This document shows positions 3,694 to 31,374 of a stretch of DNA of 31,463 nt, piece by piece. A program made the translations under genes and the position numbers. The notes below the pieces were generated by a model. The model was not told the DNA's origin. It ran no database searches and worked only from the letters and a program-made list of their open reading frames with translations. Within the stretch, counting starts at the first letter, position 1; each line of letters starts with the position of its first letter. The stretch comes from a virus, in the IMG/VR virus record IMGVR_UViG_3300008517_000030, positions 1-31,463 of that record; one strand, given 5' to 3'.

Positions 3694-3710
3694 TGTTGCA
3701 TAATGCAACA
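3694..3710 (+). repeat. Palindromic element copy 1
   Basis: TGTTGCATAATGCAACA, a perfect 8+1+8 palindrome. It ends 18 nt before the ATG of the adaptor gene and just upstream of its GTGAGGA ribosome site. The right flank is CCCTG. One of eight copies in the window. Confidence 0.85.
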
Positions 3711-3728
3711 CCCTGAAAGTGAGGAACT

Positions 3729-4469
3729 ATGACACTTGCACAGATAAGAGCAAACTTTGTTGCTAAGACTGGAAGAAATGATTTAGTTGCTGGAGATGGT
3801 ACAACGGATGATGGAGCTAACTTTTTTATTAATGCAGGACTGAGATTATTAGATACTCTACAGGACAACCCCTATACCAAAAGAAGGTATATGAAGGATG
3901 TGGTGAGTGGGGCTTATACCTTAAGCTTTCAGTACTGTAGGTCTGTGGAGAAAGTATGGATGTCTAATGCTAATCAGAGGTATGAGCTAACTGGGCCGAT
4001 GTCAGAGGAGTGGATAAGAAGGAACTATGAGGTGGCTATTGCGGATATTGCAACTGGCGTGCCGGTATATTATTGTACTAATGTTATAAAACTAGCACCA
4101 TCACAGATAGATGAAACCCTAGTGGGCTTTACTGATGCTACCTATGACAAGGGGGATATTGTCTATGGAAGAGATTGGACTTATACGGGTATTCTATTTA
4201 TGCCTCCTGCCGATGGTACTTATACAGCAACTGTTTACGGTAAGTTTTTCACTGAAAGACTGGCTGAGGACGCTAATACTAACTACTGGTCAAACGAGTA
4301 TCCGGACCTTCTTGTAATGGCCGCTATGGCTGAACTTGAGCTGTTTAATAGGAATAGGGAAGGATTTCTGGATATTGTAGAGGGTTTGAAGAATGGTCTC
4401 AATGCGGTTGATTTTATACTTGTTGAGCAGGAGATAGCAGGGGAAAGCACAATGGGGAGAAGTGGATGA
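3729..4469 (+). CDS. Head-tail adaptor (neck) protein, SU10-adaptor-like
   Basis: This 246-residue protein has the features of the phage adaptor family placed after SU10-like capsid genes. The N-terminal helix pair (LAQIRANFVAKTGRNDLV, then ANFFINAGLRLLDTL) is followed by a beta-rich middle (YTLSFQYCRSVEKVWM, KLAPSQIDETLVG). A conserved C-terminal helix block (NEYPDLLVMAAMAELELFNR) and the sequence after it close the domain. Such proteins sit between portal and tail and close the connector. The start has GTGAGGAAC upstream and lies 18 nt after palindrome copy 1, so this gene may head a transcription unit of its own. The stop overlaps the next start (ATGA), showing translational coupling. Confidence 0.68.
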   Translation: MTLAQIRANFVAKTGRNDLVAGDGTTDDGANFFINAGLRLLDTLQDNPYTKRRYMKDVVSGAYTLSFQYCRSVEKVWMSNANQRYELTGPMSEEWIRRNYEVAIADIATGVPVYYCTNVIKLAPSQIDETLVGFTDATYDKGDIVYGRDWTYTGILFMPPADGTYTATVYGKFFTERLAEDANTNYWSNEYPDLLVMAAMAELELFNRNREGFLDIVEGLKNGLNAVDFILVEQEIAGESTMGRSG

Positions 4470-4666
4470 GTAAGAAGATAAGGGAGATGTATAGGAAGGC
4501 CGGCCTAAAGCCGCCTGATGGTAAGGGTATTCATACTGAAAGGTTTCACGAGTGTGTTATTGCACTAACGAAAGCCTTAAATCCTGTAGATAATCCTTAT
4601 GCTGTTTGTATGGCTAAATTGGGTAGAGACAAGTCAGTAAAAAAGAGTCATAGGAAGAAAAAATAA
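4466..4666 (+). CDS. Small basic phage protein
   Basis: This 66-residue protein overlaps the adaptor gene through ATGA. It is lysine- and arginine-rich, ending in VKKSHRKKK, with a central NPVDNPYAVCMAKLGRDK. I have the impression of seeing the NPYAVCMAKLG stretch in short proteins encoded next to head-tail genes, but cannot name a function. Its two cysteines (HECV and AVCM) are too far apart for a simple CxxC zinc site. The basic charge suggests contact with packaged DNA or an acidic partner; this is inference. Confidence 0.6.
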   Translation: MSKKIREMYRKAGLKPPDGKGIHTERFHECVIALTKALNPVDNPYAVCMAKLGRDKSVKKSHRKKK

Positions 4667-4676
4667 AGGAGAAGAT

Positions 4677-4868
4677 ATGCCTATTATAATAAACGGTGGT
4701 TATGAAGGGGGGACCAATCCTAGTAGTCAAGAAAGACCGAGGGACGGCAGAGGAAAAGGTAAGGGAGTACCTAAAGGTCGAAGAAAGGGAAAGATGAAGA
4801 AACCTTGTCCGGACGGAGGTCCTGGATTTGGAAACGGTGAAGGTAGAGGAGGAGGCAAAAATAGATGA
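4677..4868 (+). CDS. Small Gly/Arg/Lys-rich protein
   Basis: This 63-residue protein has the site AAAGGAGAAG before its start, and its stop overlaps the next gene through ATGA. Composition is extreme: Gly, Lys, Arg and Pro dominate (GRGKGKGVPKGRRKGKMKK, later GNGEGRGGGKNR). It is almost certainly disordered. No family is recognised. Spacing and coupling support a real gene even though the sequence is low-complexity. Nucleic-acid binding or a linker role in the virion are possible but not shown. Confidence 0.5.
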   Translation: MPIIINGGYEGGTNPSSQERPRDGRGKGKGVPKGRRKGKMKKPCPDGGPGFGNGEGRGGGKNR

Positions 4869-8064: not shown

Positions 8065-8073
8065 TAAAAACTG

Positions 8074-8090
8074 TGTTGCATAATTCAACA
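8074..8090 (+). repeat. Palindromic element copy 2
   Basis: TGTTGCATAATTCAACA, one change from the perfect palindrome (right half ATTCAACA). It lies 19 nt before the ATG at 8110 and is followed by CACTATATT, then the GGAGG ribosome site. The intergenic gap is only 45 nt, so the element fills most of it. Confidence 0.85.
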
Positions 8091-8109
8091 CACTATATTG
8101 GAGGAAGAT

Positions 8110-9495
8110 ATGAATTGGAGAGATGAAGAATTAAGTATAAGGCCTCCTGTAGAGGATTTAATGGGAGCATTAAAGTACAGTAAGCCTGAAAGAAGACCTC
8201 AGTTCATGGGCGCTGACGTACCTAGACCGGAGGATGCTACCAATCGTATTATAGACACGCTAACAAGGACAGGTGATAAGACTATTGTAGAAACCGTATT
8301 GCAGGCTATGCAACTTAATCCAAAGGAGGCTTTTGGAGAAAAGAAGCCAACTAAGACTGCTGAAAAGAAACCTAAAAGATTCGTAAGTGCTATTGAACCT
8401 CCAGAGTATGGTCGAGAGTATGGGATGGAGACTATGCCGGAAGTAGCTGGACCTCCGGTGCCTGAAGGTACTAGAGAGATAAAGAAGTTTGCTGAGTTTG
8501 TAGGAAGGAATAGGCCAGGCTTGGGACTTGAGTATGGATTAGCAAGAGGGAGAGAGTTCATGGCTGACCCTAGGACAAGAATATTTCTTGGAGAGTTGGG
8601 AGCTGCTGTATCTCCTCCTGGTACTGCAGGCGAGAGGATAGGGGCGTCTGCAGCCGAAGTAGCCAGACGTGAAATAGTTGGGGATATAAGAGCGGAAGTA
8701 GCTGAGAGTGAGACTCCAGTAGAATCACTGTCAAGGGCTTTAGCTACTCCAAGAGGAAAGTTAGTGTCTCCAGAACAGATTAAGGATTTAGCTAGTTTTG
8801 CTTTACTTCCTGCCAGTATGAGAGCTCAAGAAAAAGCGGTGAAGAAAACGGAGGCTGATATAGCGTTAACTGAGGCTAGAGCAAAGACTGAAGAGGCTAT
8901 GCTTGACCCAACTATAGAGCAGGCTAAGGCAACATCAGAATGGTACAGGGCCAGGACAGAGGCCGAGAAAAGACCTGACATTACTTTCAAACCTATTATG
9001 TTTGAGGGAGAGCAGGTGATAGGTATACTTAGAGTCTTTCCTGACGGCTCAGTTGAAGTTGAACCTATACCTGATGCTAAGTTGGCTGAGGAAGCGGTAG
9101 ACCTTCCGCCAATAGCCGTTGCGAATCTTATTAATAAAAGATTAGGGGCGGAGTTCTTTGGGCCTATGAGAAGGTATGCTGCAGAGTTGTCAGCTAGTGA
9201 AGACCCTGCTGAAAGGGCAAGGGGAATTAGCTTAGACCAAAGGCTAAAACAAAAGATGATGATGGGAAGAGTAGAACTTCCTGATTGGAGCTTTGTCTTT
9301 GAGTCCTTGCCCCCTGAACTGAGGGCCTTATGGGATGCTAGATATGTAGAATTAGAGAATCAAATTAGAACTACAAGGAGTTACTATCTTGGGGGAGATT
9401 TTGAAGAAGGTTTTGAAGGAGATTTTGAAACTATCCCAAGAACAGGTGATAGAACTATCAACGAAGAACTTGATGCCTTATTTGAAGGAAAGTAA
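8110..9495 (+). CDS. Unrecognised virion-module protein, coiled-coil rich
   Basis: I place the start at ATG 8110 (GGAGG at 8100-8104, five bases away), not at the in-frame TTG at 8098, which would overlap that ribosome site. The product is 461 residues. The N-terminal third is Pro/Glu/Lys-rich and probably disordered. The middle contains a long Ala/Glu/Lys helix (ADIALTEARAKTEEAMLDPT, TSEWYRARTEAEKR) typical of a coiled coil. The C-terminal third is mixed and ends in an acidic, Gly/Phe-rich tail. No family is recognised. It ends one base into the start of the giant gene (TAATG), so the two are coupled and may be co-packaged. Confidence 0.55.
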   Translation: MNWRDEELSIRPPVEDLMGALKYSKPERRPQFMGADVPRPEDATNRIIDTLTRTGDKTIVETVLQAMQLNPKEAFGEKKPTKTAEKKPKRFVSAIEPPEYGREYGMETMPEVAGPPVPEGTREIKKFAEFVGRNRPGLGLEYGLARGREFMADPRTRIFLGELGAAVSPPGTAGERIGASAAEVARREIVGDIRAEVAESETPVESLSRALATPRGKLVSPEQIKDLASFALLPASMRAQEKAVKKTEADIALTEARAKTEEAMLDPTIEQAKATSEWYRARTEAEKRPDITFKPIMFEGEQVIGILRVFPDGSVEVEPIPDAKLAEEAVDLPPIAVANLINKRLGAEFFGPMRRYAAELSASEDPAERARGISLDQRLKQKMMMGRVELPDWSFVFESLPPELRALWDARYVELENQIRTTRSYYLGGDFEEGFEGDFETIPRTGDRTINEELDALFEGK

Positions 9496-14405: not shown

Positions 14406-14485
14406 CAAAATAGATAAAAATTAATAGAATAATTTTAGTGATGAATTCCATTTATTCACCCTTTCTTTTTTAGTTTATTACAGTG

Positions 14486-14502
14486 TGTTGCATTATGCAA
14501 CA
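14486..14502. repeat. Palindromic element copy 3
   Basis: TGTTGCATTATGCAACA, perfect with arms extending to GTGTTGCAT/ATGCAACAC. It lies between the convergent arms, 15 nt upstream of the structured RNA at 14517. It is the only copy with no open reading frame directly downstream. Confidence 0.85.
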
Positions 14503-14516
14503 CTCTATTTTAAAGG

Positions 14517-18528: not shown

Positions 18529-20979
18529 TTAGGTTGTTGCATAATGCAACACTCTATATATTTCCTTTATTTTATGAGCTGTATCTTGGATGTTTTCACT
18601 AACCTCAAACTCTCTCATATTCTTCTTCCCCCATCTTAGTCCCATCTTTGCACCAACAGGAATAGTAAACGTTGTTTGCTTCCAACGTATAGGTTGTTCT
18701 AGGGACCTCTTCAACTTCAATAAACAGTCTGCATGATACTCAAGACCAAGACTAATTGGAATCTGAAATAGCACTTCATCATGTACTTGACATAACAAGT
18801 CCAAGCCATAAAAGTCTTTCTGGTTATAGTACAATGGGTCTAACCCACGACTGTTGATTATGTCAGATACAGTACTCTGTGGATTAAAAGCGACAGCGTC
18901 AGTAACCAAGTCATCCCCCCACCTGTCTAGGAAATAAAACACTCTACCAAGACAATTCACTAGCTTCCTACTCTTTTGCAGGTCTGCCTCAACCCAGTTG
19001 TGATACCTTATGACTCCTGGATAGAACATAAAGTAGGAGTCCTTCAGTGCTTTTCCTACTCTTTCTGGCAGTCCAGAGGTCAACGCAAACTTCTTATATC
19101 CCCATCTATAATTAAATGCGTGATTTGTTTTCTTACCCATCTTTCTTTCTGACCAGTCCTCTTCTCCAAAAGGATAAGAACCCTCTTCATCTGATACCTC
19201 CTCTGGAGGCTTGTTTAGTATCAGACCAGCAGTCTTTCTATGTATATCCTCCTTATTTTCAAAGGCCTCTATCATATTTGGTTCTGGGGATATGTATGCA
19301 ACTATCTTATTCTCCGCCTGCTCTAAGTCCAGGCTATATATTATACAGTCTTCATCTGCCATGAAGAACTGCCGGACGTACTCAGGCTGATTCTGTAAAT
19401 CCATACCTGTATCAAATATAGTTTTACTACTACTAAACCTTCCGTACTTTGAGCCTATAGGATTGAAGTTGCTTCTAATTCTATCATCTTCTTCCAGTTT
19501 GACTTCTAAGTAAGTACCTCTTAACTTCACTTGCTTCCTTATCTTTAGAATAAGGTTAGCCTCTGGCACTCCCCTCCTTGCTAGTCTCTTCATAGCGTTT
19601 ACGTCTGTAGTTATTTTTCCTCTGGTTGTATACGGCTTATATCCTTTCTTTATATAAAAATAGTTCATAAGCTGTTGAGGACTATTAGGGTTTATCTCAA
19701 ACCCACACATACTCCAGAGTTCTTCCTTCAAGACTCCTATCTTTTCCTCTGCTACAGCTGAAGCCCCTCTCAATCCTTCCACATCTATTTTGATTCCTCT
19801 ATTCTGCATATAAACGGCGGGCTCTACCATCCTCACTTGCCTTTTGTAAGTTTCAGTATTACCTAATTCATCAAGGTCTGACATAATCTTTGGGAATGCT
19901 TCGTGAGTAACACAGCAGTCCTTCCCGTTGTAGATGGAGAATGATTCTTCCGTGCCTCCTATCTTATTCCATTTCTTTCCCTCATCTTTGTAATACGGCT
20001 CTCTAGTAAACCAGGATGCTATCCAGTCTAACCCTTTAGGAAGGTCAGGATATAACAATCCTTGAGCAATCATAGTGTCATCTACATTATGTGTTCTAAT
20101 ATTATACTTCCAGAGTAAAAAAGAGCAGTCAAAGACTATATTCTGTCCTCTCTTCACTATTCTCTCATCCTCAAGGAGGACAGCAACAGCCCTCCAGATC
20201 TCCAACTCCTCCTCAGGAAGGAATAAATCATTACCACCCCTTGAGAATGCAATACTAATAGCCTCATCGTCTGCCCAGGCTACACCCATTCTTGTCAGCT
20301 CTTCCCCTAACACTTCAATATCTATTGTTAGAACACTCTTAGTTTTACAGTGTGCTAAACACTCCATAGTTTCTATAAACGTAGAATCTATGAGGATGTG
20401 TCTATTGGGCAGATTGATAGAAGGACTGTTACTCTCTTCCCTAATCCTCTTCAAATCCCTAGTTATAGGATATATGTTGAGGAAGTTTCCTCCTGGCATT
20501 GCTCCTCTTACAGTTTGTCTTTCCCTAACAGAACCCGGATGGAGAATAGGAATGGTCTTTCTACCATCTAATCCTTCAAGGATAGACCCTCTCAGTTTAG
20601 TTATCTCTGCTCTTCCAGTTAGAGCAAAGCAAGCTAGCTTCCCCACAGGTACTATTACATTGGCTTCCATCTCCTTAAGTTCTGCCTTTAAACTGTTCTC
20701 ATACTCAACATACTTGGCAGTCCTTGGGTAGCCCTTTCTGCCAAAGTCGATGAAACTAGTGTAACTGTTGTGGGGAAGTAGCTCTTTAATAACGTTGGTT
20801 ATATAACAGTGCTGACGTACTATCCCAGCACTCCTCAACCTTGAGTCAAACTCCTGACCTACGGGACCTACGAAAGGTCTGCCTAGCCTCACCTCCTCCT
20901 TTCCAGGAGCCTCACCTACAAAGCAGATTTTACACTGCTTAGGTCCTTCACCTTTTACTATTGTTATCTTAGAGTTCAT
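18529..20979 (-). CDS. polA: Uracil-DNA-glycosylase-like domain fused to family A DNA polymerase
   Basis: An 816-residue fusion. Residues 16-180 resemble a family 4/5 uracil-DNA glycosylase, with GEAPGKEE at 22-29, GRPFVGPVG at 33-41 and HPG at 148-150. Residues 215-375 are a 3'-5' exonuclease with motifs D220-x-E222, D284 (QNIVFDCSFL) and Y350-x3-D354. The polymerase follows: KYGRFSSS at 511-518, motif A around D551 (SLDLEQAENKIVAY), motif B around R612 to Y624 (RKMGKKTNHAFNY) and motif C HDE at 733-735. Motif B lacks the standard NFG; a His may occupy the Phe762-equivalent place, depending on alignment. The start has no Shine-Dalgarno sequence and overlaps a 38-residue ORF by 11 nt, implying coupling. 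The last codons overlap palindrome copy 4. A 218-codon antisense frame is a shadow. Confidence 0.9.
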   Translation of the reverse strand: MNSKITIVKGEGPKQCKICFVGEAPGKEEVRLGRPFVGPVGQEFDSRLRSAGIVRQHCYITNVIKELLPHNSYTSFIDFGRKGYPRTAKYVEYENSLKAELKEMEANVIVPVGKLACFALTGRAEITKLRGSILEGLDGRKTIPILHPGSVRERQTVRGAMPGGNFLNIYPITRDLKRIREESNSPSINLPNRHILIDSTFIETMECLAHCKTKSVLTIDIEVLGEELTRMGVAWADDEAISIAFSRGGNDLFLPEEELEIWRAVAVLLEDERIVKRGQNIVFDCSFLLWKYNIRTHNVDDTMIAQGLLYPDLPKGLDWIASWFTREPYYKDEGKKWNKIGGTEESFSIYNGKDCCVTHEAFPKIMSDLDELGNTETYKRQVRMVEPAVYMQNRGIKIDVEGLRGASAVAEEKIGVLKEELWSMCGFEINPNSPQQLMNYFYIKKGYKPYTTRGKITTDVNAMKRLARRGVPEANLILKIRKQVKLRGTYLEVKLEEDDRIRSNFNPIGSKYGRFSSSKTIFDTGMDLQNQPEYVRQFFMADEDCIIYSLDLEQAENKIVAYISPEPNMIEAFENKEDIHRKTAGLILNKPPEEVSDEEGSYPFGEEDWSERKMGKKTNHAFNYRWGYKKFALTSGLPERVGKALKDSYFMFYPGVIRYHNWVEADLQKSRKLVNCLGRVFYFLDRWGDDLVTDAVAFNPQSTVSDIINSRGLDPLYYNQKDFYGLDLLCQVHDEVLFQIPISLGLEYHADCLLKLKRSLEQPIRWKQTTFTIPVGAKMGLRWGKKNMREFEVSENIQDTAHKIKEIYRVLHYATT
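18535..18551. repeat. Palindromic element copy 4
   Basis: TGTTGCATAATGCAACA, perfect. It overlaps the last codons of polA, where the - strand encodes RVLHYATT, and ends 24 nt before the start of the 31-residue membrane ORF. The right flank on the + strand is CTCTATATAT. Confidence 0.85.
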
Positions 20980-21237: not shown

Positions 21238-21238
21238 A

Positions 21239-22564
21239 TTACTTATAACTCCTATATTTTCCAGGTTCTGATTCGTGAACCTCAATAGCAAAACTGTTTT
21301 TATTATCTTCTGACAAGTCCCAACCAGTGCCTGACAGACCTAAATTAGCACCTGCCAGTAAAGTATTACCACTACCCAGAAACGGCACTAGTATCTTATC
21401 TCCAGGCTCGCAGACCAGGCTCAAAATGTCTTGCATTAATTCTACAGGTTTTTCAGTTGGATGTCTTTTTTGTAGTGGCGGTATAGGATTATATCTAAAG
21501 TCATTAGACCTTCCCTGACGGACTAGCTCACTTCTATCTCTTCTTGCTAGAAAGAACGACTCGTAACTACTGCCTAGGTAGAGCTTAGGACTGTTGGTTT
21601 GTCCTGTTCCCTTTGTCCAGATGCAAGGGACAGCCAAATACCGAAACTTGTTAGTAGCAAGTAGCACATTTACGGTATGAAACCAAGGGTCTGGAGCGAA
21701 CCAGACAGTTATCCAACCGTCATCTCCTATGACTCTAGCACACTGAGGTATCATAAAGTCCATCAACTCTTTGTACTCTTTTGCATCTACCTCATTGTAT
21801 TCCTCCATACTAGTTCTAGGCCCATCTAACTTTTTCCACTTATCTAATGTTATGCCAAAGGGCGGGTCAAGGTCTATATACTTTACTGACTTGTCTGGAA
21901 GGTCAGCAATCTGTCTGGCATCTCCTACTATGTAAGAGTCTGCTAAATTCTTCCTCAGGATGTCTATAGCTGTGCCGCCTCTAACTTCCTCAATAACTCT
22001 CATCTTTTCTTTTCTGATGTGAGTCTTTCCAATAGTCTTTAGTACCTTTCTTGCATCCTCTTTAGTTTTCAGGTTGGCAAGTTCAGGCATGGTTTCTATT
22101 AACTCAGCTAACTGCAAGTCCCTACTCAAAGTGGATTTATGCTCTCCTAACATAGATGCCGTATCAGCATCACTATGTCCTATTAGTCCTATCTTCTCTC
22201 CATGAATATCCTTTAATAGTACGTTTATTTCCTTCTTCATTTTCAATTCTTCCGCCCAAGACAAGTCCTTTCTACAAAGGTTCTCAGCCAGCTCTATAGA
22301 CTTCATCTCCTGTTCACTTAGTCCTTCATCATAAACTCTGACTGGTACTTCTGTATGACCTAGCCTAACACAGGCAGTCAAACGACGGTCTCCTGCTAAA
22401 AGACGGTAAGGATGAGTACAACCAGCTGGCAGCTCCGCCACAGCCAGAGGTTGTATTAGACCGTGCTCTTCTATATCCTTCATTAGAACTAGCATTTCAC
22501 CGTAGTCAACTCTACTCCTGTTACTTCGGTCTATAGATTTAATCTCAACTGTTTTTAACTTCAT
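21239..22564 (-). CDS. ParB-like domain fused to an adenine/cytosine-N DNA methyltransferase
   Basis: A 441-residue two-domain protein. Residues 1-110 are ParB/Srx-like: HGLIQPLAV and YRLLAGDRRLTACVRLGH (AGDRR at 57-61), then ELAENLCRKDLSW. A helical, possibly DNA-binding region (about 110-205) contains IGLIGHSDADTASMLGEH, which looks like a helix-turn-helix. Residues 210-441 are a methyltransferase with DPPFG at 233-237, HPTEKP at 368-373 and VPFLGSGNTLLAGA around 393-406. The order DPPF before FLGSG marks the beta-type permutation of N6-adenine or N4-cytosine enzymes. It may methylate phage DNA at sites chosen by the N-terminal part, as protection or regulation. The start has only a weak AGAAAG site. 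Confidence 0.88.
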   Translation of the reverse strand: MKLKTVEIKSIDRSNRSRVDYGEMLVLMKDIEEHGLIQPLAVAELPAGCTHPYRLLAGDRRLTACVRLGHTEVPVRVYDEGLSEQEMKSIELAENLCRKDLSWAEELKMKKEINVLLKDIHGEKIGLIGHSDADTASMLGEHKSTLSRDLQLAELIETMPELANLKTKEDARKVLKTIGKTHIRKEKMRVIEEVRGGTAIDILRKNLADSYIVGDARQIADLPDKSVKYIDLDPPFGITLDKWKKLDGPRTSMEEYNEVDAKEYKELMDFMIPQCARVIGDDGWITVWFAPDPWFHTVNVLLATNKFRYLAVPCIWTKGTGQTNSPKLYLGSSYESFFLARRDRSELVRQGRSNDFRYNPIPPLQKRHPTEKPVELMQDILSLVCEPGDKILVPFLGSGNTLLAGANLGLSGTGWDLSEDNKNSFAIEVHESEPGKYRSYK

Positions 22565-23999: not shown

Positions 24000-24030
24000 G
24001 ACAATTCTCCTTTCTTGTTTTTGTTAAGAG

Positions 24031-24047
24031 TGTTGCATAATTCAACA
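24031..24047. repeat. Palindromic element copy 5
   Basis: TGTTGCATAATTCAACA, flanked symmetrically by AGAG and CTCT. The whole 25-bp site is a dyad with a single mismatch. It lies 31 nt upstream of the ssDNA-binding-like gene. Confidence 0.85.
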
Positions 24048-24064
24048 CTCTATATTATAACTCA

Positions 24065-24154
24065 CTAATACTTTCTTATCTCATCTCTAATGAGAAGAAT
24101 ATCCACAATAAGACAAAAGGCCGCTACTATAGCTAAACAAACTAAGTCAAACAT
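24065..24154 (-). CDS. 29-residue membrane micro-protein
   Basis: ATG at 24152-24154 overlaps the end of the preceding gene by 8 nt and has GAAGAGAAAG upstream; the frame ends at TAG 24065-24067. The peptide opens MFDLVCLAIVAAFCLIVDIL and ends LIRDEIRKY: one hydrophobic helix, then a basic tail. It has the same plan as the 31- and 50-residue membrane ORFs in this arm. Function unknown. Confidence 0.5.
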   Translation of the reverse strand: MFDLVCLAIVAAFCLIVDILLIRDEIRKY

Positions 24155-24338: not shown

Positions 24339-24348
24339 AATAATTCTT

Positions 24349-26139: not shown

Positions 26140-26408
26140 TTCCCCTCCTTCTCTGCAAGTTTTCTGTTGATTGATAATTTAAATAAGTGTAAATGTCTTG
26201 CTATTACTACTGGCTCTATATACCACCTGCATGATTTTTCATGATAGACCATATCCATTCCTCCACTAAACCAGTTATTCGCTACTTCCTCGATCTCCTC
26301 ATACGTCAACATCGGTTCACGCTTGAGTTCTTCTATTTCAAGTTTCAAATTGTAAATAGTCTGCCTTATCTCATTATATTCTTCTGCATTATATCTCCCT
26401 ATGTTCAT
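26136..26408 (-). CDS. Hypothetical protein sharing a C-terminal module with a neighbour
   Basis: A 90-residue protein with AAAGGAAAG before ATG, overlapping the preceding zinc-ribbon ORF through ATGA and the next gene through ATGA. The N-terminus is a helix (YNAEEYNEIRQTIYNLKLEI). The centre REPMLTYEEIEEVANNWFSG and the end INRKLAEKEGK match the C-terminal region of the 168-residue protein at 25423-25929. Function unknown. Confidence 0.55.
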   Translation of the reverse strand: MNIGRYNAEEYNEIRQTIYNLKLEIEELKREPMLTYEEIEEVANNWFSGGMDMVYHEKSCRWYIEPVVIARHLHLFKLSINRKLAEKEGK

Positions 26409-26545
26409 TTCTTTCCTTTCTTTTTCCTAATCTCCAACTTGCCTGACTTACAGAAAGGACATCTTACCTCAGACTGGTGGTGTCTGTACGTAAATATTCT
26501 TGCACAGTGCTTACAACTATACTCTTTAACTTTTAGTTCAAACAT
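26405..26545 (-). CDS. 46-residue zinc-ribbon protein
   Basis: Found in the gap after the nuclease gene. ATG at 26545 has TTTGGAG eight bases upstream, one base after the nuclease stop; the TGA overlaps the next ATG (ATGA). The protein starts MFELKVKEYSCKHCARIFTY and later has RCPFCKSGKLEI and a Lys-rich tail. CxxC at 11-14 and CxxC at 29-32 form a complete four-cysteine zinc ribbon. Zinc ribbons of this size usually contact nucleic acid or a protein partner; coupling to the nuclease suggests an accessory. Two overlaps and a full metal site make it a convincing gene. Confidence 0.7.
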   Translation of the reverse strand: MFELKVKEYSCKHCARIFTYRHHQSEVRCPFCKSGKLEIRKKKGKK

Positions 26546-26546
26546 T

Positions 26547-27563
26547 CTAGTCTCCAAAGCCTAATTCTAACATTTTTATATCTTCTCTCAAAGCATTATA
26601 TATCTCCATAAATGTCTCATCTTCCCCTGCTATGTCAAGGTGTACTACTTTCTTGGCTGTCTCTTCCCTTTCAAGAGGATTCCACCACTCTATCCTGAAA
26701 CCTCTTGGAGGTTCACCTTCGTTAAAGTACTGTAGAGGATTAGCCCAAGCACCACAGAAGTCGTGGTATTCACAGGTCTTATAATAGGAGCAACAGTTGG
26801 TTGGCCTCATAGGAAATGCCATTAGCACTCCATCACTATCTGAGCACTCTCGTAGCCTCTCAAACTCCCAGTCAATCATATCCAGCCAGTAAAGGATAGT
26901 CCACCACCAAGTATTCATAGACTCTGGAGTCTTCCTAACTGGCACTCTCTCAAAGTCTAATCCTTTCTGTCTAAAGAATGTGCCGTCTATCACAACTCCA
27001 TAAATCTTTTCATTGGGGTAGAGCATATGTAAGACGTGAGAATAAGTGCCAATCGACAGGTCTAAGTACCACTGGTCTGCCCAGGCACTGTCCTTTCTCT
27101 TACTCGTCTTATGTTCCCTTGAAAAGATACCCTCTTTACCTCTACAGATGGAGTCCATCTTAAATGCGACCTTACGAGTATCATCTATTCCGACAGTGCC
27201 AGCTACTTCAGTAAATAGAGTCTCATACTGGTCTCCTCTATATCTGGTATAATACTCCACAAGGGCGGGAATGACTATGCCAGGAGTCTTTGCTCCGTAT
27301 AGTTCGTCTGACATCTCATCAAAGTCTTTTCTGTAGATGTCAAGGAAGGCTCTCTCTGCTTTCATTAGAGAGTCTTCATTGAAACCTTCTATCATAGTAA
27401 CTTCCCTAGCAGCATGCCAAGCACTTCCAAAAACTAAGTCCTGTTTAGGTGTATCAGAAGTCCAACCTAGAACATAACGGTAAAAATAGTATCTAGGGCA
27501 CTCCATAAAAGCCTTTATTTTTGAAGAGTCCTGAATAGCCCAAGTAGGATGTGGTTGTATCAT
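26547..27563 (-). CDS. Cas4/RecB-like PD-(D/E)XK nuclease with Fe-S cysteines
   Basis: A 338-residue protein with GAGGGAGAAAG before ATG. KIKAFMECPRYYFYRYVLGW (Cys22) is the typical N-terminal RecB/Cas4 opening. His50 (FGSAWHAAREV), Asp137 (AFKMDSI) and the Glu150-x-Lys152 motif (SREHKTSK) form the nuclease site. C-terminal Cys258, Cys264 and Cys270 (CCSYYKTCEYHDFC), together with Cys22, would bind a 4Fe-4S cluster as in Cas4 and AddB. Not part of a CRISPR locus here. With the Sak4-like ATPase and ssDNA-binding-like protein in the same arm, it fits a phage recombination module that resects ends. Confidence 0.85.
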   Translation of the reverse strand: MIQPHPTWAIQDSSKIKAFMECPRYYFYRYVLGWTSDTPKQDLVFGSAWHAAREVTMIEGFNEDSLMKAERAFLDIYRKDFDEMSDELYGAKTPGIVIPALVEYYTRYRGDQYETLFTEVAGTVGIDDTRKVAFKMDSICRGKEGIFSREHKTSKRKDSAWADQWYLDLSIGTYSHVLHMLYPNEKIYGVVIDGTFFRQKGLDFERVPVRKTPESMNTWWWTILYWLDMIDWEFERLRECSDSDGVLMAFPMRPTNCCSYYKTCEYHDFCGAWANPLQYFNEGEPPRGFRIEWWNPLEREETAKKVVHLDIAGEDETFMEIYNALREDIKMLELGFGD

Positions 27564-27595
27564 TTCTTTCTCCCTCTGAGATTACAAATATATAA

Positions 27596-27688
27596 CTATA
27601 CTTCTATTAAATAGACTAATAGAAACATACTTACTACACAATGAACTGCCGTATAGTGCATGAACGTACGATATATTAATAAGTACAT
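27596..27688 (-). CDS. Possible 30-residue membrane micro-protein
   Basis: An ATG at 27686-27688 opens a frame to TAG 27596-27598, in the 157-nt stretch between the 54-residue ORF and the nuclease gene. The peptide has a basic first half (MYLLIYRTFMHYTAVHC) and a hydrophobic second half (VVSMFLLVYLIEV). No good Shine-Dalgarno sequence is present, only GGAT, so this is a weak candidate. It is recorded because the region is otherwise empty and similar micro-proteins occur nearby. Confidence 0.3.
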   Translation of the reverse strand: MYLLIYRTFMHYTAVHCVVSMFLLVYLIEV

Positions 27689-27720
27689 ATCCGTGAGTAT
27701 ATTTTTGGAGTTGTATTCGT

Positions 27721-27885
27721 TTATTTATCTCCATTTCTCTCCCTCACTTTTCTACTCTTCCTATACTCTTTCTTATCTGGGAGGTTGTTCTTATGCTTAT
27801 GCCAGTGCTCAAAACAGTAACCTTGATTAAATACTCTCCTCTCACATCCTTCTTCTAAGCACCTCAGAACTTTATTTAAAGGCAT
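27721..27885 (-). CDS. 54-residue zinc-finger-like protein
   Basis: ATG at 27885 has AGAGG six bases upstream and the frame stops at TAA 27721-27723. RCLEEGCERRVFNQGYCFEH gives Cys-x4-Cys-x9-Cys-x2-His, a zinc-binding pattern seen in many small phage proteins and in HNH-associated fingers. A basic tail follows (HKHKNNLPDKKEYRKSRK). No HNH catalytic triad follows, so this is a finger without nuclease. It is the first gene after the terminator at 27933-27968. Confidence 0.65.
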   Translation of the reverse strand: MPLNKVLRCLEEGCERRVFNQGYCFEHWHKHKNNLPDKKEYRKSRKVRERNGDK

Positions 27886-27932
27886 AATAACCTCTATTAA
27901 TTATGTGTGAGAATGTACTTGTTAAACTAAGC

Positions 27933-27968
27933 AAAAAAGAGGACTATCACTTTGCTCTGTGATAGTCC
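27933..27968 (-). terminator. Intrinsic terminator
   Basis: On the - strand: perfect 10-bp stem GGACTATCAC/GTGATAGTCC, loop AGAGCAAA, then TCTTTTTTG. It lies 22 nt after the stop of the 138-residue gene and separates it from the zinc-finger ORF and nuclease downstream. This is the clearest terminator in the window. Confidence 0.9.
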
Positions 27969-27990
27969 CCTAATTCTGGGTAGCTGAATG

Positions 27991-28407
27991 CTACGCCTTT
28001 TTCAAGCCTGCAGCCTCGATAATTGCATTGACCTTTGCACGCTTCTCTTCCTCAGTCATAGTGCCTGAAGCGAACTGAGCCTTCAGCGCTGCTATCGGGT
28101 CAGAAACCCTGTGCATCGTAACGCCTGGCTTCCAAGGAGCTAAACGAACTCGGATTGCCGCCTCATCTTCACCTCTGTCAAGTCCTGAACGTATATTCCC
28201 TTGAAGGGAAACTATAGAAGCTGCTACGAAAGCACTGTGAACTGGAGCTTCTCCGAAGAGTTCAACTGACTCTTGGAGGCTAGCTCCAAAATTGTACTCC
28301 ATTGAGGCAGTAAGCACCCTCTGTTTCCCAGTCTTCTCGTCAATGACCTTTTCTTTGGTAGCAGGGTCAACCACTGGCTTTCTGGCTGTTACTAGTGTTG
28401 TAGCCAT
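27991..28407 (-). CDS. Conserved-looking phage protein, probably highly expressed
   Basis: A 138-residue protein with GAGAGGAG before ATG. It opens MATTLVTARKPVVDPATKEK, then MEYNFGASLQESVELFGE, VHSAFVAASIVSLQGNIR, and APWKPGVTMHRVSDPIAALK. The YNFGASLQESVELFGE region is one I associate with an uncharacterised phage protein family; no enzymatic motif. Its DNA is richer in GC-type codons (GCC, CGG, GCG) than neighbouring genes. It is the best-isolated gene of the arm: a structured leader and palindrome copy 6 lie upstream and a strong terminator lies downstream. That arrangement suggests a monocistronic, abundant product. Confidence 0.6.
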   Translation of the reverse strand: MATTLVTARKPVVDPATKEKVIDEKTGKQRVLTASMEYNFGASLQESVELFGEAPVHSAFVAASIVSLQGNIRSGLDRGEDEAAIRVRLAPWKPGVTMHRVSDPIAALKAQFASGTMTEEEKRAKVNAIIEAAGLKKA

Positions 28408-28452
28408 AACGGTCTCCTCTCTTAGTTTGTCCCACTAAATATGTATATAGAG

Positions 28453-28469
28453 TGTTGCATAATGCAACA
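28453..28469 (-). repeat. Palindromic element copy 6
   Basis: TGTTGCATAATGCAACA, perfect, extending to GTGTTGCATAATGCAACAC (28452-28470). It lies 45 nt upstream of the ATG at 28407. The CTCTATAT flank is on the - strand side here, the opposite orientation to the other copies. Confidence 0.85.
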
Positions 28470-28476
28470 CAGTAAT

Positions 28477-28559
28477 TGAGAGGCCGAAGACAGAGAACTT
28501 CAGACCTGCACTTTTAGTACAGTGGAGGTTCTTCGTCAACGGTGGGGGAACGCCTCTCA
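28477..28559 (-). ncRNA. Structured leader RNA, domain A
   Basis: Three helices stack in one long hairpin: TGAGAGGC (28477-28484) with GCCTCTCA (28552-28559), CGAAGA (28485-28490) with TCTTCG (28530-28535), and ACCTGCAC (28504-28511) with GTGGAGGT (28522-28529), which has one mismatch. Two single-sided bulges of 13 and 16 nt remain (28491-28503 and 28536-28551). It lies in the 5' region of the 138-residue gene, before palindrome copy 6. No ORF fits. I do not recognise a riboswitch class. Confidence 0.55.
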
Positions 28560-28569
28560 TATATGTTTA

Positions 28570-28648
28570 GAGACACTCAACTGAGTTTTGTTTGAAAGGG
28601 TGAAAATCAAGAGAAAATCCCCTTTATGTCCAACTAGCTGAGTGCCTC
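28570..28648 (-). ncRNA. Structured leader RNA, domain B
   Basis: A 10-bp stem pairs GAGACACTCA (28570-28579) with TGAGTGCCTC (28639-28648). The single mismatch is A-C on the + strand but a G-U pair in the - strand RNA, so the - strand is favoured. An inner stem pairs AAAGGG (28595-28600) with CCCTTT (28620-28625). It lies just upstream of domain A and after the stop of the 152-residue gene. Confidence 0.5.
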
Positions 28649-28663
28649 ATGAATTAGTCTACT

Positions 28664-29122
28664 TCACATTTTAGGCTTCTTTCCTAGCTCTTCCTTAACT
28701 GTGTCAAGAGTCAACTTCCTTTCTTCATCAACTTCCCTAGCAACTTTCCTAGCAACATCTTTCATAACTTTATCGGCAGAAGCCCCTTTTAAAGTCCTGA
28801 CTCTTGGCAGGTCTATATTGAAATCTGCTTTGAGGGTTTCCCCTTGAAGTTGTTTTATTAAAGCTCTCTTATTTCTCCCACCTCTATCTACCTCAATACC
28901 ACTTTCCCAAAGAAAGTTAATAGCCTCTTCTGCTGATGTGAAGGATTCGGTCATCTCGTTATCTATTAGAATTTGGGCAAAATGCTCTACTATAGTACCA
29001 AGCAGGTCGGACTTTGACCTTATTGGAATGCTGTTCTTGAGATAATAGGAAAGAATTGTAGCAAGTGGAATTATGTCGACTCTTGCTTCTATGCAACTTG
29101 CTCTCACAATCTCCTCTGACAC
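28664..29122 (-). CDS. Hypothetical protein, start uncertain
   Basis: The frame opens at GTG 29122, giving 152 residues, but an AGAGGAG site lies inside it and a second GTG at 29107 follows only three bases after. A perfect extended -10 (TGTTATAAT) at 29123-29131 would start the transcript near 29116, favouring the later start. The protein is helical (EARVDIIPLATILSYYLKNS, SDLLGTIVEHFAQILIDNEM) with basic, helical C-terminal segments (KVMKDVARKVAREVDEERKL). No family is recognised. Followed by the structured leader region. Confidence 0.5.
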   Translation of the reverse strand: MSEEIVRASCIEARVDIIPLATILSYYLKNSIPIRSKSDLLGTIVEHFAQILIDNEMTESFTSAEEAINFLWESGIEVDRGGRNKRALIKQLQGETLKADFNIDLPRVRTLKGASADKVMKDVARKVAREVDEERKLTLDTVKEELGKKPKM

Positions 29123-29131
29123 ATTATAACA
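29123..29131 (-). promoter_or_regulatory. Extended -10 promoter candidate
   Basis: On the - strand TGTTATAAT, a perfect TGnTATAAT extended -10. The -35 region at 17-nt spacing (AAATCT) is poor, which extended -10 promoters tolerate. It would transcribe the 152-residue gene and beyond. Confidence 0.5.
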
Positions 29132-29140
29132 GTAATGAAA

Positions 29141-29209
29141 TAACTAGATTTGATATACTCTCCCCTTACTGAGTAACTAGTCCTTGATATGGTTTTTAAC
29201 TGTTGATAT
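29141..29209 (-). repeat. Three direct repeats of TAACTnnTTGATAT type
   Basis: On the + strand, TAACTAGATTTGATAT (29141-29156), TAACTAGTCCTTGATAT (29174-29190) and TAACTGTTGATAT (29197-29209). All lie in the 158-nt AT-rich non-coding stretch 29123-29280, between two candidate promoter sites. Operator or replication-origin iterons are possible. Confidence 0.55.
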
Positions 29210-29213
29210 ACAC

Positions 29214-29242
29214 AAGGTAATAAATGCACATCCATTTGTCAA
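29214..29242 (-). promoter_or_regulatory. Promoter candidate with consensus -35
   Basis: On the - strand, TTGACA (29242-29237), a 17-nt spacer and TACCTT (29219-29214). The -35 is perfect; the -10 keeps only T, A and the final T. It reads toward the direct repeats. Confidence 0.4.
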
Positions 29243-29280
29243 CAATTTACTTTGCACAAATAAAACCAGTTTGAATTAGT

Positions 29281-29505
29281 TTACACATTCGGGATATTTC
29301 CGGACTTTGGTTCCCAGTTATCTTCTTTAGTGTCGTTCCTCTCATTGGAGAAAGTTATCTCATTTCCGGTTGCTTGACTGAAGATGTGAAAGTTGACTTC
29401 GTGAGCATTCAGTATTTGTCTGAGACTTTCCTCTATACCTTCTACTGCCGCTGATGTTATTGGGTTTTTTATAGTTATTAATAAGACCGCTTGATAGTGT
29501 GTCAT
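29281..29505 (-). CDS. Small alpha/beta hypothetical protein
   Basis: A 74-residue protein with AAGGAGGAATTAG before ATG, a strong ribosome site. It opens with a strand (HYQAVLLITIKNPITSAAVE), a helix (GIEESLRQILNAHEVNFHIF) and a polar C-terminus. The beta-alpha-beta feel resembles a small ferredoxin-like fold, but there are no diagnostic residues. Palindrome copy 7 lies 27 nt upstream of the start. The non-coding regulatory stretch lies after its stop. Confidence 0.55.
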   Translation of the reverse strand: MTHYQAVLLITIKNPITSAAVEGIEESLRQILNAHEVNFHIFSQATGNEITFSNERNDTKEDNWEPKSGNIPNV

Positions 29506-29526
29506 AACTAATTCCTCCTTTAATTA

Positions 29527-29742
29527 TTAGACTGTTGTATTATGCAACACCCTTTTTACTTCTTGGGCTTTGCTTAGTATAACGATATTTTCAAGAACGG
29601 TACTGCCATCACTTGAGATAAGTGGTATAATTTCTAGCTCCAGGAACCTCAGATTTCTTCTTGAAGCAAAGACCACTTTGGTATCTTTACGTACACCTTT
29701 CAGTGCATCTCTTAAATCTCCGACGTTACGGATAGTTTTCAT
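29527..29742 (-). CDS. Small phage protein of the VGDLRDALKGV type
   Basis: A 71-residue protein with TAGGAGGTAAG before ATG. It opens MKTIRNVGDLRDALKGVRKD, followed by a strand TKVVFASRRNLRFLELEIIP. Short early proteins with this start are frequent in phages and share the alpha-beta mini-domain style of the 69- and 77-residue proteins in this arm. The last residues RVLHNTTV are encoded by palindrome copy 7, so the stop lies inside the regulatory element. Confidence 0.6.
   Translation of the reverse strand: MKTIRNVGDLRDALKGVRKDTKVVFASRRNLRFLELEIIPLISSDGSTVLENIVILSKAQEVKRVLHNTTV
29533..29549. repeat. Palindromic element copy 7
   Basis: TGTTGTATTATGCAACA, one change in the left half (TGTTGTAT). 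It overlaps the last codons of the 71-residue gene and ends 27 nt before the start of the 74-residue gene. Confidence 0.8.
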
Positions 29743-29785
29743 AACTTACCTCCTAACCTAATGAATGTTGTAATTATCCGTACTC

Positions 29786-30019
29786 TTACAGCAAGAAGTC
29801 TCGACGGAACTTTTCGTCTGCCTCGACAAGGATACCTACTACATTGTCTTCCTCGAAGGGTGTAGCGTCATCGATTAGGAGATTGATACAATCTTCCTTA
29901 TCAATTTCTACGTTACCACTTTTGTCCTTTTTGAGTCCCCAAGGTAGGAACGGCTGTAGGTCTGCTGAGTCAGGCATTCCTGCTGTTGCCTTTCTAAACT
30001 CTCCTAGTGTTAGTGCCAT
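29786..30019 (-). CDS. Small phage protein of the TLGEFRKATAGMPD type
   Basis: A 77-residue protein with AGAAGGAG before ATG. It opens MALTLGEFRKATAGMPDSAD, continues LQPFLPWGLKKDKSGN and ends with an acidic helix and strand (NVVGILVEADEKFRRDFLL). The LGEFRKATAGMPDSADL start resembles that of many short early phage proteins. Function unknown; two similar neighbours suggest a diversified family. Confidence 0.6.
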   Translation of the reverse strand: MALTLGEFRKATAGMPDSADLQPFLPWGLKKDKSGNVEIDKEDCINLLIDDATPFEEDNVVGILVEADEKFRRDFLL

Positions 30020-30021
30020 AA

Positions 30022-30192
30022 CTACTCCTTCTCTCTATAAACATTTAGGTTGACTTTAACTCCGCCTGTCTGAATAGCACCTTTACTAGATGCTACCATT
30101 ACAGACTTTCCGCTCTTGGATAAACCAAGATTTTTCGTCAGGTCGACAGTTATAATTAACTTGTCGCCCTCTGTCCTAGTTTCGATATTCAT
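30022..30192 (-). CDS. 56-residue conserved-style phage protein
   Basis: Found by hand in a 185-nt gap. ATG at 30192 has AAAGGGAG seven bases upstream; the frame ends at TAG 30022-30024, against the next ribosome site. The protein has MNIETRTEGDKLIITVDLTK, NLGLSKSGKSVMVASSKGAI and a strand VNLNVYREKE. The LSKSGKSVMVASSKG region is very like short phage proteins I have seen encoded beside recombination genes. It contains GKS, but the surroundings are wrong for a P-loop. It is an obvious real gene by spacing. Confidence 0.7.
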   Translation of the reverse strand: MNIETRTEGDKLIITVDLTKNLGLSKSGKSVMVASSKGAIQTGGVKVNLNVYREKE

Positions 30193-30204
30193 AATCTTCT
30201 CCCT

Positions 30205-30393
30205 TTAGGTGAATAGTTTAGTTTGTACTCTTTTATTTTGGTCTCTTACTTCTTTATGGAGACGCTCTAATCTAACGATAATCTGTTTTAGTAATCTACT
30301 TGCAGTACTATAATTCTCCTCTTCAATAAACTCTTTTATGTGGTCAAGAGAAGCCTTAATACTTTTAATGTCGTCAGCATTGATTTTGCTCAT
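30205..30393 (-). CDS. Small helical hypothetical protein
   Basis: A 62-residue protein preceded by GGAAAGAAAGAAG, a degenerate ribosome site. Almost entirely helical and charged (INADDIKSIKASLDHIKEFI, TASRLLKQIIVRLERLHKEV), with heptad-like Ile/Leu spacing that would form a coiled coil. No family is recognised. It lies 12 nt before the next gene in the series of small early proteins. Confidence 0.55.
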   Translation of the reverse strand: MSKINADDIKSIKASLDHIKEFIEEENYSTASRLLKQIIVRLERLHKEVRDQNKRVQTKLFT

Positions 30394-30419
30394 CTTCTTT
30401 CTTTCCAGGATTTATCTAA

Positions 30420-30719
30420 TTACTGTAGGCTCTGCCACTTACAGTTGTTGCACTGAAGTGAGTAATTAAGTTCAGTACTGCCGCAGTTAGGACAAGGTGC
30501 TGTTTCCTCTTCAGCCTGAGCCCCTGCAAATGCCTGAACGGCGGCTCTGTAAAGGGCTGTCAGTCTGTCTATGTTGATATACTCTCCATTAATATCTACA
30601 AATACATTGTCAGGGAACTCGTGGTTAGTTACTTCCCTGCTTTCCAACTCAACTATAGTTGAGTCCCGGAGGCTGATAATCTCAACACAGTCCTCTTTAA
30701 TTATTATCCTTTTTACCAT
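30420..30719 (-). CDS. Protein with C-terminal zinc ribbon
   Basis: A 99-residue protein with GGGAGG about ten bases before ATG, overlapping the previous gene by 7 nt. The N-terminal part is beta-rich (VKRIIIKEDCVEIISLRDST, NVFVDINGEYINIDRL). The C-terminus carries a full four-cysteine zinc ribbon (CPNCGSTELNYSLQCNNCKW). The ribbon suggests nucleic-acid or transcription-machinery contact. It is the sort of small early protein that binds host factors, but there is no direct evidence for a partner. Confidence 0.6.
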   Translation of the reverse strand: MVKRIIIKEDCVEIISLRDSTIVELESREVTNHEFPDNVFVDINGEYINIDRLTALYRAAVQAFAGAQAEEETAPCPNCGSTELNYSLQCNNCKWQSLQ

Positions 30720-30934
30720 AGTGTTATACCTCCCTGTTCATTACTTGTAGGTTTGATAGCACCCAAAGTGGGTATTCTTTTGTGCTCTAAATTATATACT
30801 CTGGCAAGGACTTTAGCCTCCTTCCGAGTGGTGAAAGGACCGTCTTCTAAAAAGTCCTTTTGAATGCTGTCATATAGACTCCAAATAGGATAAATGCTAG
30901 TGCCTAAATTATGTACTGTTATTCTTGCTTTCAT
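30713..30934 (-). CDS. Small hypothetical early protein
   Basis: A 73-residue protein with AAAGGAGG seven bases before ATG, overlapping the upstream gene by 26 nt and the downstream gene by 7 nt. The sequence MKARITVHNLGTSIYPIWSL, then FTTRKEAKVLARVYNLEHKR, fits a short beta-beta-alpha unit like the N-terminus of the 168-residue protein (GFPYSILKDG, FETFREAVKYID). No function recognised. Confidence 0.55.
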   Translation of the reverse strand: MKARITVHNLGTSIYPIWSLYDSIQKDFLEDGPFTTRKEAKVLARVYNLEHKRIPTLGAIKPTSNEQGGITLW

Positions 30935-31298
30935 TAAATGCCTCCTTTATTTTCTCAATCATTTTGTATTTTTCTTCTTCGGACAAATCATTAACCTGCT
31001 CGATTGCGAGTTTAGTTCTGCACTTAACATCAGAACAAACTCCTTTTGGTGGAGGTATTATTATTACTCCGCAGAGCCTACAAAATTTAGCAGACTCAGA
31101 TTCTTTCTTAGAACTTATAGCACTTTCTGAGTGGCAGGCTTCAATGCACCTAATTACTTCGCCTATATCGTACATCCTGCCGTCTGCTACCACAACTATA
31201 TTTTTAGGCTTAATTATGAACCCTTCATCCTCTGTGAAGAGAATAGTGCTTGTAGAACTGACCTTGACTCCCATTATATCTTCTTTATTTATAGACAT
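30909..31298 (-). CDS. Cys-rich hypothetical protein, first gene of the right arm in this window
   Basis: A 129-residue protein with AAGGGGAC before ATG. The first half is beta-rich (STILFTEDEGFIIKPKNIVV, VADGRMYDIGEVIRCIEA). The second half has KFCRLCGVIIIPPPKG and GVCSDVKCRTKLA: CxxC plus Cys-x4-Cys, a zinc-ribbon-like set. A charged helix closes the protein. Its leader contains palindrome copy 8 and a TGTTACAAT extended -10. No family is recognised. Confidence 0.55.
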   Translation of the reverse strand: MSINKEDIMGVKVSSTSTILFTEDEGFIIKPKNIVVVADGRMYDIGEVIRCIEACHSESAISSKKESESAKFCRLCGVIIIPPPKGVCSDVKCRTKLAIEQVNDLSEEEKYKMIEKIKEAFNESKNNST

Positions 31299-31345
31299 AA
31301 CAGTCCCCTTCTATTTGTTACAGTTTATTAATGCACTGCAATACT

Positions 31346-31354
31346 ATTGTAACA
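31346..31354 (-). promoter_or_regulatory. Extended -10 promoter candidate next to palindrome copy 8
   Basis: On the - strand TGTTACAAT (TGnTACAAT). The start point would be near 31339, giving a leader of about 41 nt before ATG 31298. Palindrome copy 8 occupies the -35 region, where a bound repressor or activator would act. Confidence 0.45.
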
Positions 31355-31357
31355 GGT

Positions 31358-31374
31358 TGTTGCATAATGCAGCA
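31358..31374. repeat. Palindromic element copy 8
   Basis: TGTTGCATAATGCAGCA, one change in the right half. It lies 59 nt upstream of the last gene's ATG. The right flank is CCCTATTA; adapter sequence starts 13 nt further on. Confidence 0.8.

Follow-up and report, generated by a model that had tools for sequence, protein, structure and literature searches.

Dispersed palindromes of a tailed phage as candidate binding sites of its own ParB-HTH-methyltransferase fusion

The virus record IMGVR_UViG_3300008517_000030, analyzed here over its full length of 31,463 nucleotides (the window), belongs to a tailed phage and carries eight dispersed copies of a 17-bp palindrome. The question raised by this locus is which protein recognizes these copies and what it does there. 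The palindromes are probably double-stranded DNA binding (loading) sites of a protein of the phage itself, a fusion of a ParB-type domain and a helix-turn-helix (HTH) with a DNA methyltransferase, and their middle letters would have diverged together with the recognition helix of that protein. This reading draws on the sites, their private sequences, a common frame, an even spacing, a link to ParB-methylase genes, a predicted HTH fold and moderate covariation, all of which were computed here. The closest annotated relative in the phage collection was Desulfofustis phage LS06-2018-MD01 (OP947158), with 46% identity in the major head protein and 40% in the DNA polymerase.

Using TGTTGCATWATGCAACA with up to three mismatches allowed, exactly eight matches were found in the window, the number given by the initial annotation, compared to a mean of 0.06 and a maximum of 1 in 100 dinucleotide shuffles. 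Four copies are perfect (cores 3694-3710, 14486-14502, 18535-18551 and 28453-28469; copies 1, 3, 4 and 6) and four carry one mismatch (8074-8090, 24031-24047, 29533-29549 and 31358-31374; copies 2, 5, 7 and 8). This count of four deviating copies had been reported before; a broken stem pair had been assigned to copies 7 and 8 only, and here all four were found to break a pair. In the window the dyad spans 25 bp in all; AG stands at positions −12/−11 and CT at +11/+12 from the dyad axis, each side being present in seven of the eight copies.

The seven distances of 18 to 59 nt between a copy and the next downstream ATG were also recovered. Copy 1 (3690..3714) is located 18 nt before the gene at 3729(+) and copy 2 (8070..8094) 19 nt before its ATG. 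Copy 4 (18531..18555) shares sequence with the final codons of the DNA polymerase gene (open frame 18529-20979) and precedes the next ATG by 23 nt. The genes 23616-23999(−) and 27991-28407(−) are preceded by copy 5 (24027..24051) at 31 nt and by copy 6 (28449..28473) at 45 nt. Copy 7 (29529..29553) lies within the final codons of 29527-29742(−) and stands 27 nt ahead of the gene 29281-29505(−), and copy 8 (31354..31378) lies 59 nt before the gene 30909-31298(−). At copy 3 (14482..14506) the two arms converge 3′-3′, and the gene calls used show no start codon downstream of it; this copy also scores as an intrinsic-terminator-like hairpin (14485-14503). A weaker palindrome, TGCAGTATCATACTGCA, was observed at 3641-3657, 53 nt ahead of copy 1, and partly fits the per-genome matrix described below.

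For a comparison with related phages, contigs were collected by DNA polymerase and head protein and subjected to an open scan for repeated dyads with no preset sequence, followed by a search with a per-genome matrix. Matrix sites were accepted at a score of at least 22 or, for the counts of frame, junctions, largest genes and spacing, at least 26. The resulting clade comprises 20 contigs: the window, OP947158, G001-G015 (DNA polymerase 41-49% identical) and G022-G024 (head protein 42-53%); VsABT was excluded from the clade counts. A repeated dyad family could be identified in all 20 contigs, mostly with a sequence private to the contig. Examples are TGTCCCAAWTTGGGACA in OP947158, TGTCAATTATATTGACA in G001, TGGGGAATTATTCCCCA in G022 and TGTATGCATAAAATGCATACA in G023, whereas G004 and G005 have one family in common. 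The phage-wide character of the element is supported, and the search for the motif in relatives gave a divided answer, since the sequence of the window is absent from them yet they carry repeated palindromes of their own.

The open scan gave a clear family in 17 of the 20 contigs; those of G003, G009 and G010 (4-5 copies, 1-2 in shuffles) emerged only when intergenic DNA alone was scanned. With a stricter uniform scan, 17 of 19 contigs were recovered, G003 being missed and G010 giving a repeat cluster within 170 bases instead. An exact-motif scan of viral contigs, which returned 13 stretches from 12 contigs with one palindrome per stretch, was uninformative. In the distant phages PaP2, Kuura, Mel-JY34, ctMlz233, CRP-810 and G025 no family clearly above shuffles was found, the margin being at most one extra copy in the open scan and 2 versus 1 copies for Mel-JY34 in the uniform scan. 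Vibrio phage VS-ABTNL-3 (MF497422), which encodes a diverged ParB-methylase, has a possible even-centred dyad, TCAATCGACGAGTCGATTGT, in 3-4 copies (L050 173, 23359, 38800; 2 in shuffles).

Despite their private sequences, the clade sites follow one frame around the dyad axis: an odd centre (even centres were also allowed in the open scan), a length of about 25 bp and a mostly A/T-rich middle. Positions −8 to −4 are variable. CT at −11/−10 together with AG at +10/+11 was found in 12 of the 20 clade contigs, while the window, with AG at −12/−11, represents a second class. Over 61 genomes, 47 belong to the CT class, 9 including the window to the AG class and 5 to neither. A common frame with changing middle letters is the pattern expected from orthologous binders with changing specificity.

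A candidate for such a binder is encoded in the window itself, on the minus strand at 21239..22564, so the earlier proposal of a regulator encoded elsewhere is probably wrong. The predicted protein of 441 amino acids (aa) consists of a ParB_N domain with an NTP-binding fold (residues 8-96; 22277..22543), an HTH (residues 132-158; 22091..22171), whose recognition helix 143-158 holds residues covarying with the site, and an N6_N4 DNA methylase domain with a DPPF motif (residues 228-420; 21305..21883), all on the same strand. The fusion is present in 19 of the 20 clade contigs; it was not seen in G003, a contig beginning with the DNA polymerase gene. ParB_N (PF02195) and N6_N4_Mtase were found in one chain in all 18 aligned fusions, and the nucleotide-box residues R60, R61, E94, N95 and R98 are invariant in all 18. 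In profile searches against the Protein Data Bank (PDB), the best match of the N-terminal part was Noc (7ng0; E 1.9e-20), along with ParB/Spo0J, and the C-terminal part matched m4C/m6A methylases. The AlphaFold model (mean pLDDT 82.5, pTM 0.58) places helices 132-139 and 143-158 in the position of an HTH. For the N-terminal part, Foldseek gave alignments of 194-213 columns with Noc chains, the Noc-NBS complex 7ol9 among them, ranked below the methylase matches. The C-terminal dimerisation domain of the ParB family is absent, that part being occupied by the N6_N4 methylase. Motif IV reads DPP[YF] in 14 of the 18 fusions.

The domain architecture assigns the window protein to the phage ParB-CTPase-N6N4 methyltransferase fusions, which are listed as an uncharacterised group in PMC12704722. 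A canonical ParABS system was rejected as an explanation on the ground that no ParA was found: PF13614 was detected in none of 19 contigs, several of them incomplete, compared to 14 of 14 control genomes. Here and in the analyses of largest genes, integrase and spacing, G005 was excluded.

If the fusion is the binder, loci found by the protein alone should carry dyads of the same frame. A first fetch by the fusion alone gave 80 loci (of at least 562), of which six already known contigs were dropped; only odd-centred dyads were sought in fusion-fetched loci. Such a dyad in at least two copies was found in 33 of the 74 remaining loci and in 18 of the 24 loci longer than 16 kb. The CT..AG frame was present in 29 of the 33 dyad loci, compared to 8 of the 251 dyads that shuffling of 40 loci produced, and shuffled loci reached at most two copies and nearly always one. 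A second scan covered 27 newly numbered fusion loci, reduced to 22 by the removal of five duplicates; loci returned under old numbers were not recounted. As controls, 46 distant methylase matches were used, from which seven with a weak ParB-like part, none of them with a repeat, were removed. A repeated dyad was detected in 13 of the 22 full-fusion loci (10 of 17 with at least 10 kb), with the CT..AG frame in 7 of the 13, versus 3 of the 39 ParB-less controls (L225, L242 and L244; 2 of 27 with at least 10 kb; Fisher p 3.4e-4), none of which shows CT..AG. Keeping the seven weak-ParB loci among the controls gives 3/46 and 2/30 (p 1.7e-4).

These counts speak against the alternative that the dyads are bound by another phage or host protein and that the ParB-methylase is merely co-inherited. 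Further core genes are near-universal in the clade, a number of their columns showing site covariation of about the same strength, as would suit such an alternative, and a lineage with dispersed dyads lacks a detectable ParB-methylase (G016-G021, see below). The repeated dyads, however, follow the fusion rather than ParB-less methylases in loci fetched by the fusion alone, and the covariation is enriched in the HTH of the fusion, at residues equivalent to ParB-parS contacts. Another binder is therefore considered a rather improbable explanation.

The covariation of proteins and sites was analyzed after near-identical proteins had been removed at the redundancy thresholds given. L155, L164 and L211 were omitted from the enlarged and four-protein sets because their family is not site-like; L164 was kept in the 55-pair set and in its mutual-information test, from which G024 was omitted. 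Among the 55 protein-site pairs, seven of the nine proteins with H143 have GG at −7/−6, and seven of the nine GG sites pair with H143, L164 among these resting on a single site. An ACA site was found with four of the five proteins carrying 'E[ST]..N'. When redundancy is cut at 60% (36 proteins), the two leading columns among 372 are residues 149 and 144, in this order; the segment 142-152 is then first of 415, and recognition-helix columns exceed the other columns (p 0.016). Residues 133 and 144 lead at 75% redundancy (44 proteins; recognition helix p 0.007), and in the unfiltered set of 51 proteins residue 160 is first and residue 144 second (p 0.0025). When HTH columns were ranked together with those of the DNA polymerase, fam2 and Sak4 in 48 genomes, they took ranks 6, 7, 28, 36, 37, 54 and 57 of 1,507 (p 0.0076).

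Residues 132, 143, 148 and 149 of the fusion correspond to Q162, R173, N178 and T179 of Caulobacter ParB by an ungapped mapping on the HTH helices of the AlphaFold model, with contacts taken from PMC7383237. In the Caulobacter protein, R173 bonds with guanine 1 of parS (PMC7383237), and residue 143 of the fusion covaries most with site position −7. In the enlarged set, the contact-equivalent residues exceed the rest with p 0.011 (55 proteins) and 0.0035 (44 proteins), the set of residues having been picked after the mutual-information result was known. In these tests, site letters show a significant, if moderate, covariation with recognition-helix residues.

Several observations, like this late choice of residues, weigh against the fusion as the binder. 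A first test (partial Mantel, 17 genomes) placed the HTH segment at rank 127 of 2,878, and other proteins scored higher. At 75% redundancy the segment 142-152 is only third, behind 226-238, with 228-238 at the top. In the four-protein comparison the HTH columns are outranked by columns of the fusion outside the HTH and by columns of fam2. Over the enlarged and four-protein sets, columns 127, 257 and 348 as well as fam2 and Sak4 columns also rank high. The covariation tests overlap in sequences and are not independent replicates, and phylogeny was controlled only partly. No repeated dyad was found in 41 of the 74 and 9 of the 22 fusion loci, mostly short ones, including 6 of the 24 longer than 16 kb, and diverged fusions occur without clear dyads in Mel-JY34, ctMlz233 and G025. 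In G016-G021 (DNA polymerase 26-29% identical) the situation is reversed, with many dispersed dyads of another kind and no ParB-methylase detected. Dyads by themselves thus do not imply a ParB-methylase. As for the protein, the window fusion scores 51.0 bits for TIGR00180 parB_part at a cut-off of 58.45 bits (three of four tested pass), the Pfam HTH_ParB match is weak and found in 3 of 18 fusions, and canonical ParB-type sites are shorter than the dyads of about 25 bp. Motif IV deviates in four of the 18 fusions (DPDY, DPDF, DFPY and DSPY in L072, L078, L018 and L064), so catalysis may not be universal; judged by their sequences, these four methylases may be inactive or of other specificity. 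With all points considered, binding of the dyads by the fusion is still regarded as highly probable.

The dyads of G016-G021 are a different element from that of the clade. In G020 (L089-L091), up to 36-38 copies of TTGTGTGASTCACACAA were counted, and a copy stands at most 15 nt before the start in 15 of 26 called leftward genes. The same type of element was observed in G021 (L092-L093) and G017-G019 (L035-L037), where a ParB-methylase was likewise not detected.

What binding would serve can be approached from the location of the sites. Gene calls on unannotated contigs came from a simple open reading frame (ORF) picker, so that start distances and cases inside short ORFs are approximate. The 20 contigs hold 161 sites. 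Genes of like orientation flank 99 of them; convergent junctions, found in 15 contigs, account for 21, divergent junctions for 8 and contig ends for 5, and the other 28 lie inside called ORFs, several of them short and doubtful. Among the 159 sites of 19 contigs, 97 have a start codon within 65 nt, where 15.2 are expected. At the 99 co-oriented junctions, the dyad starts at a median of 4 nt past the upstream stop codon (73 within 20 nt), and a median of 19 nt separates its end from the start codon. The dyads thus fill these junctions and leave little room for a promoter.

The proximity to start codons fits a role of the same binder in transcription control, as a KorB-like repressor or roadblock near gene starts. 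This alternative is closest to the regulon of the initial annotation, which had proposed an operator or promoter element. The ParB-family clamp KorB represses promoters from O_B sites close by or far away (PMC11790492). Against it stand the scant promoter room, the copies at convergent junctions and deep inside genes, and the downstream gene families, which vary from phage to phage (the best case is a family with a site before 8 of its 14 members); a fixed regulon was rejected for this last reason. In a scan of positions 12000-31388, which hold copies 3-8 (copies 1 and 2 are outside this range), 29 sigma-70-like matches were found versus 38.6 by chance. None lies just upstream of copies 3-8, the nearest being at a distance of about 55 nt, and a sigma-70 promoter was accordingly rejected for these copies. 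An N4-like hairpin promoter for a virion RNA polymerase was also dismissed, no such polymerase being recognized among the proteins scanned, the 1,636-aa ORF described below included. An operator or promoter as the general role is not borne out by these results, and transcription control is judged unlikely to be the main function.

The sites can fold as hairpins, most of them precede ribosome sites and copy 3 is terminator-like, as would be expected of RNA elements such as leader hairpins, processing sites or terminators. RNA pairing would favor G-U over A-C mismatches. Read in the direction of the downstream gene, the 1,188 pairs of the 99 oriented sites from 20 contigs contain 41 G-U, 44 A-C and 183 other mismatches (36 G-U and 37 A-C in a wider site set), and this near-equality argues against RNA pairing. 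Moreover, the asymmetric centre of G004 is found in both orientations, and copy 3 alone of copies 3-8 scores terminator-like. RNA elements are thus extremely unlikely, and the preference of the initial annotation for a dyad DNA site of a dimeric protein over an RNA hairpin was supported.

Of 19 contigs, 14 have sites spaced more evenly than randomly drawn intergenic gaps (p<0.05; Fisher combined p 1e-20), and in 6 of 19 the spacing is also more even than under uniform placement (combined 6e-9). Operon structure could contribute to this. Copies also occur inside the longest genes: where the largest gene has at least 5.4 kb, a copy lies 1.0-2.1 kb inside it in five of eight genomes (not in G009, G010 and G024). 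For largest genes of 4.5-5.2 kb this was found in one of six genomes, near the gene start, and for smaller ones in none of five. With sites every few kb, mostly at gene junctions and sometimes inside the longest gene, clamps loaded there could reach the whole genome.

On this basis, a mechanism can be proposed in which a dimer of the fusion would bind each dyad by its HTH, then close as a nucleotide-dependent clamp and move onto the adjoining DNA, by analogy to ParB, Noc and KorB. Loaded clamps would reach the whole genome, carry the methylase along and mark or organize the phage DNA. The dyads would be comparable to parS, NBS or O_B sites with middle letters diverging from phage to phage. For ParB, Noc and KorB, loading at palindromes followed by CTP-dependent closure and sliding has been described (PMC8429893; PMC11790492). 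Judged from this likeness, the fusion may well act as a nucleotide-dependent sliding clamp. That methylation of the flanking phage DNA is the purpose is conceivable and is held with less confidence than the clamp. More tentative is the idea of a self-addressed genome marking, in which a sliding-clamp methylase with evenly spaced private docking sites would modify or coat its own genome and not that of the host or of a co-infecting phage. The docking code would then be rewritten between phages by changes of the recognition helix, similar to plasmids avoiding common partition sites.

The ParB-HTH part could also be the target-recognition part of a highly specific methylase acting only within the dyads. 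The junction of the HTH to a methylase and the mostly A/T-rich dyad centre would fit this, but the even spacing, the copies inside long genes and the invariant nucleotide-box residues would be left unexplained. A methylase confined to its dyads is therefore seen as a minor possibility, on a par with transcription control.

Compared to known systems, the fusion and the dyads share with ParB-parS and Noc-NBS the ParB_N fold with conserved box residues, a predicted HTH and palindromic sites. The sites of Noc are dispersed around the chromosome, and the specificity residues of ParB and Noc are located in the HTH region (PMC7383237; PMC8429893). Unlike in these systems, a methylase takes the position of the C-terminal dimerisation domain in the fusion and no ParA was found, and the phage site is about 25 bp long, odd-centred, mostly phage-private and fast-changing. 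KorB-O_B of plasmid RK2 is similar in that a ParB-family clamp on a mobile genome acts from operators, also distantly (PMC11790492); KorB is a repressor working with KorA and has no methylase, whereas copies 3-8 are without recognizable promoters just upstream.

Dispersed, lineage-specific phage sites that change with a DNA-binding protein of the phage have been described as stoperators in Cluster A mycobacteriophages (PMC6550527). The many dispersed and lineage-differing sites of the clade might accordingly be immunity sites of temperate phages like the L5 stoperators. Stoperators serve the immunity repressors of temperate phages and are asymmetric, with a length of 13 bp, while the sites found here are symmetric; a tyrosine integrase was detected in none of 19 contigs, several of them incomplete, and no repressor gene was recognized among the subset of proteins scanned. 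Immunity sites are thus very unlikely. The SAS/ESAS repeats of Cluster K also precede start codons, and about half of them are accompanied by inverted repeats (PMC3203893). They differ by a 13-bp asymmetric core, mostly one orientation, conservation across phages and a proposed role in translation initiation, as described in the same source.

The same pairing of domains as in the window protein is reported for the ParB-CTPase-N6N4 fusions, which are stated to be more frequent in phages (PMC12704722); the accessible part of that survey gives neither a target site nor a genome-wide site set. A search of the open-access literature revealed no published target sites for phage ParB-methylases. The fusions are an already known but uncharacterised class. 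From the present analysis this class gains a candidate DNA target that is readable from sequence in many phages, and the natural protein-site pairs offer material on how ParB-type specificity changes. The question of whether a ParB-type clamp steers a methylase along a genome also becomes testable; if true, this would add a new viral means of marking or organizing the virus's own DNA. The pairs could furthermore supply orthogonal site-specific DNA-binding pairs.

Two further features of the window were noted. The last 76 bases (31388-31463) are an Illumina Nextera/P7 adapter with poly-A that was read into the assembly end. The phage sequence therefore ends near 31387, ORF predictions extending beyond it are artefacts, and copy 8, located before the adapter start at 31388, is phage DNA. 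An ORF of 1,636 aa was found at 9495-14405; of 27 records searched, only one gave a significant match (G024, 33% over residues 909-1596). OP947158 and other relatives likewise have a very long gene ending the same arm. The sole PHROG matches of this ORF, at residues 723-807, are named methyltransferase (best E 3e-12).

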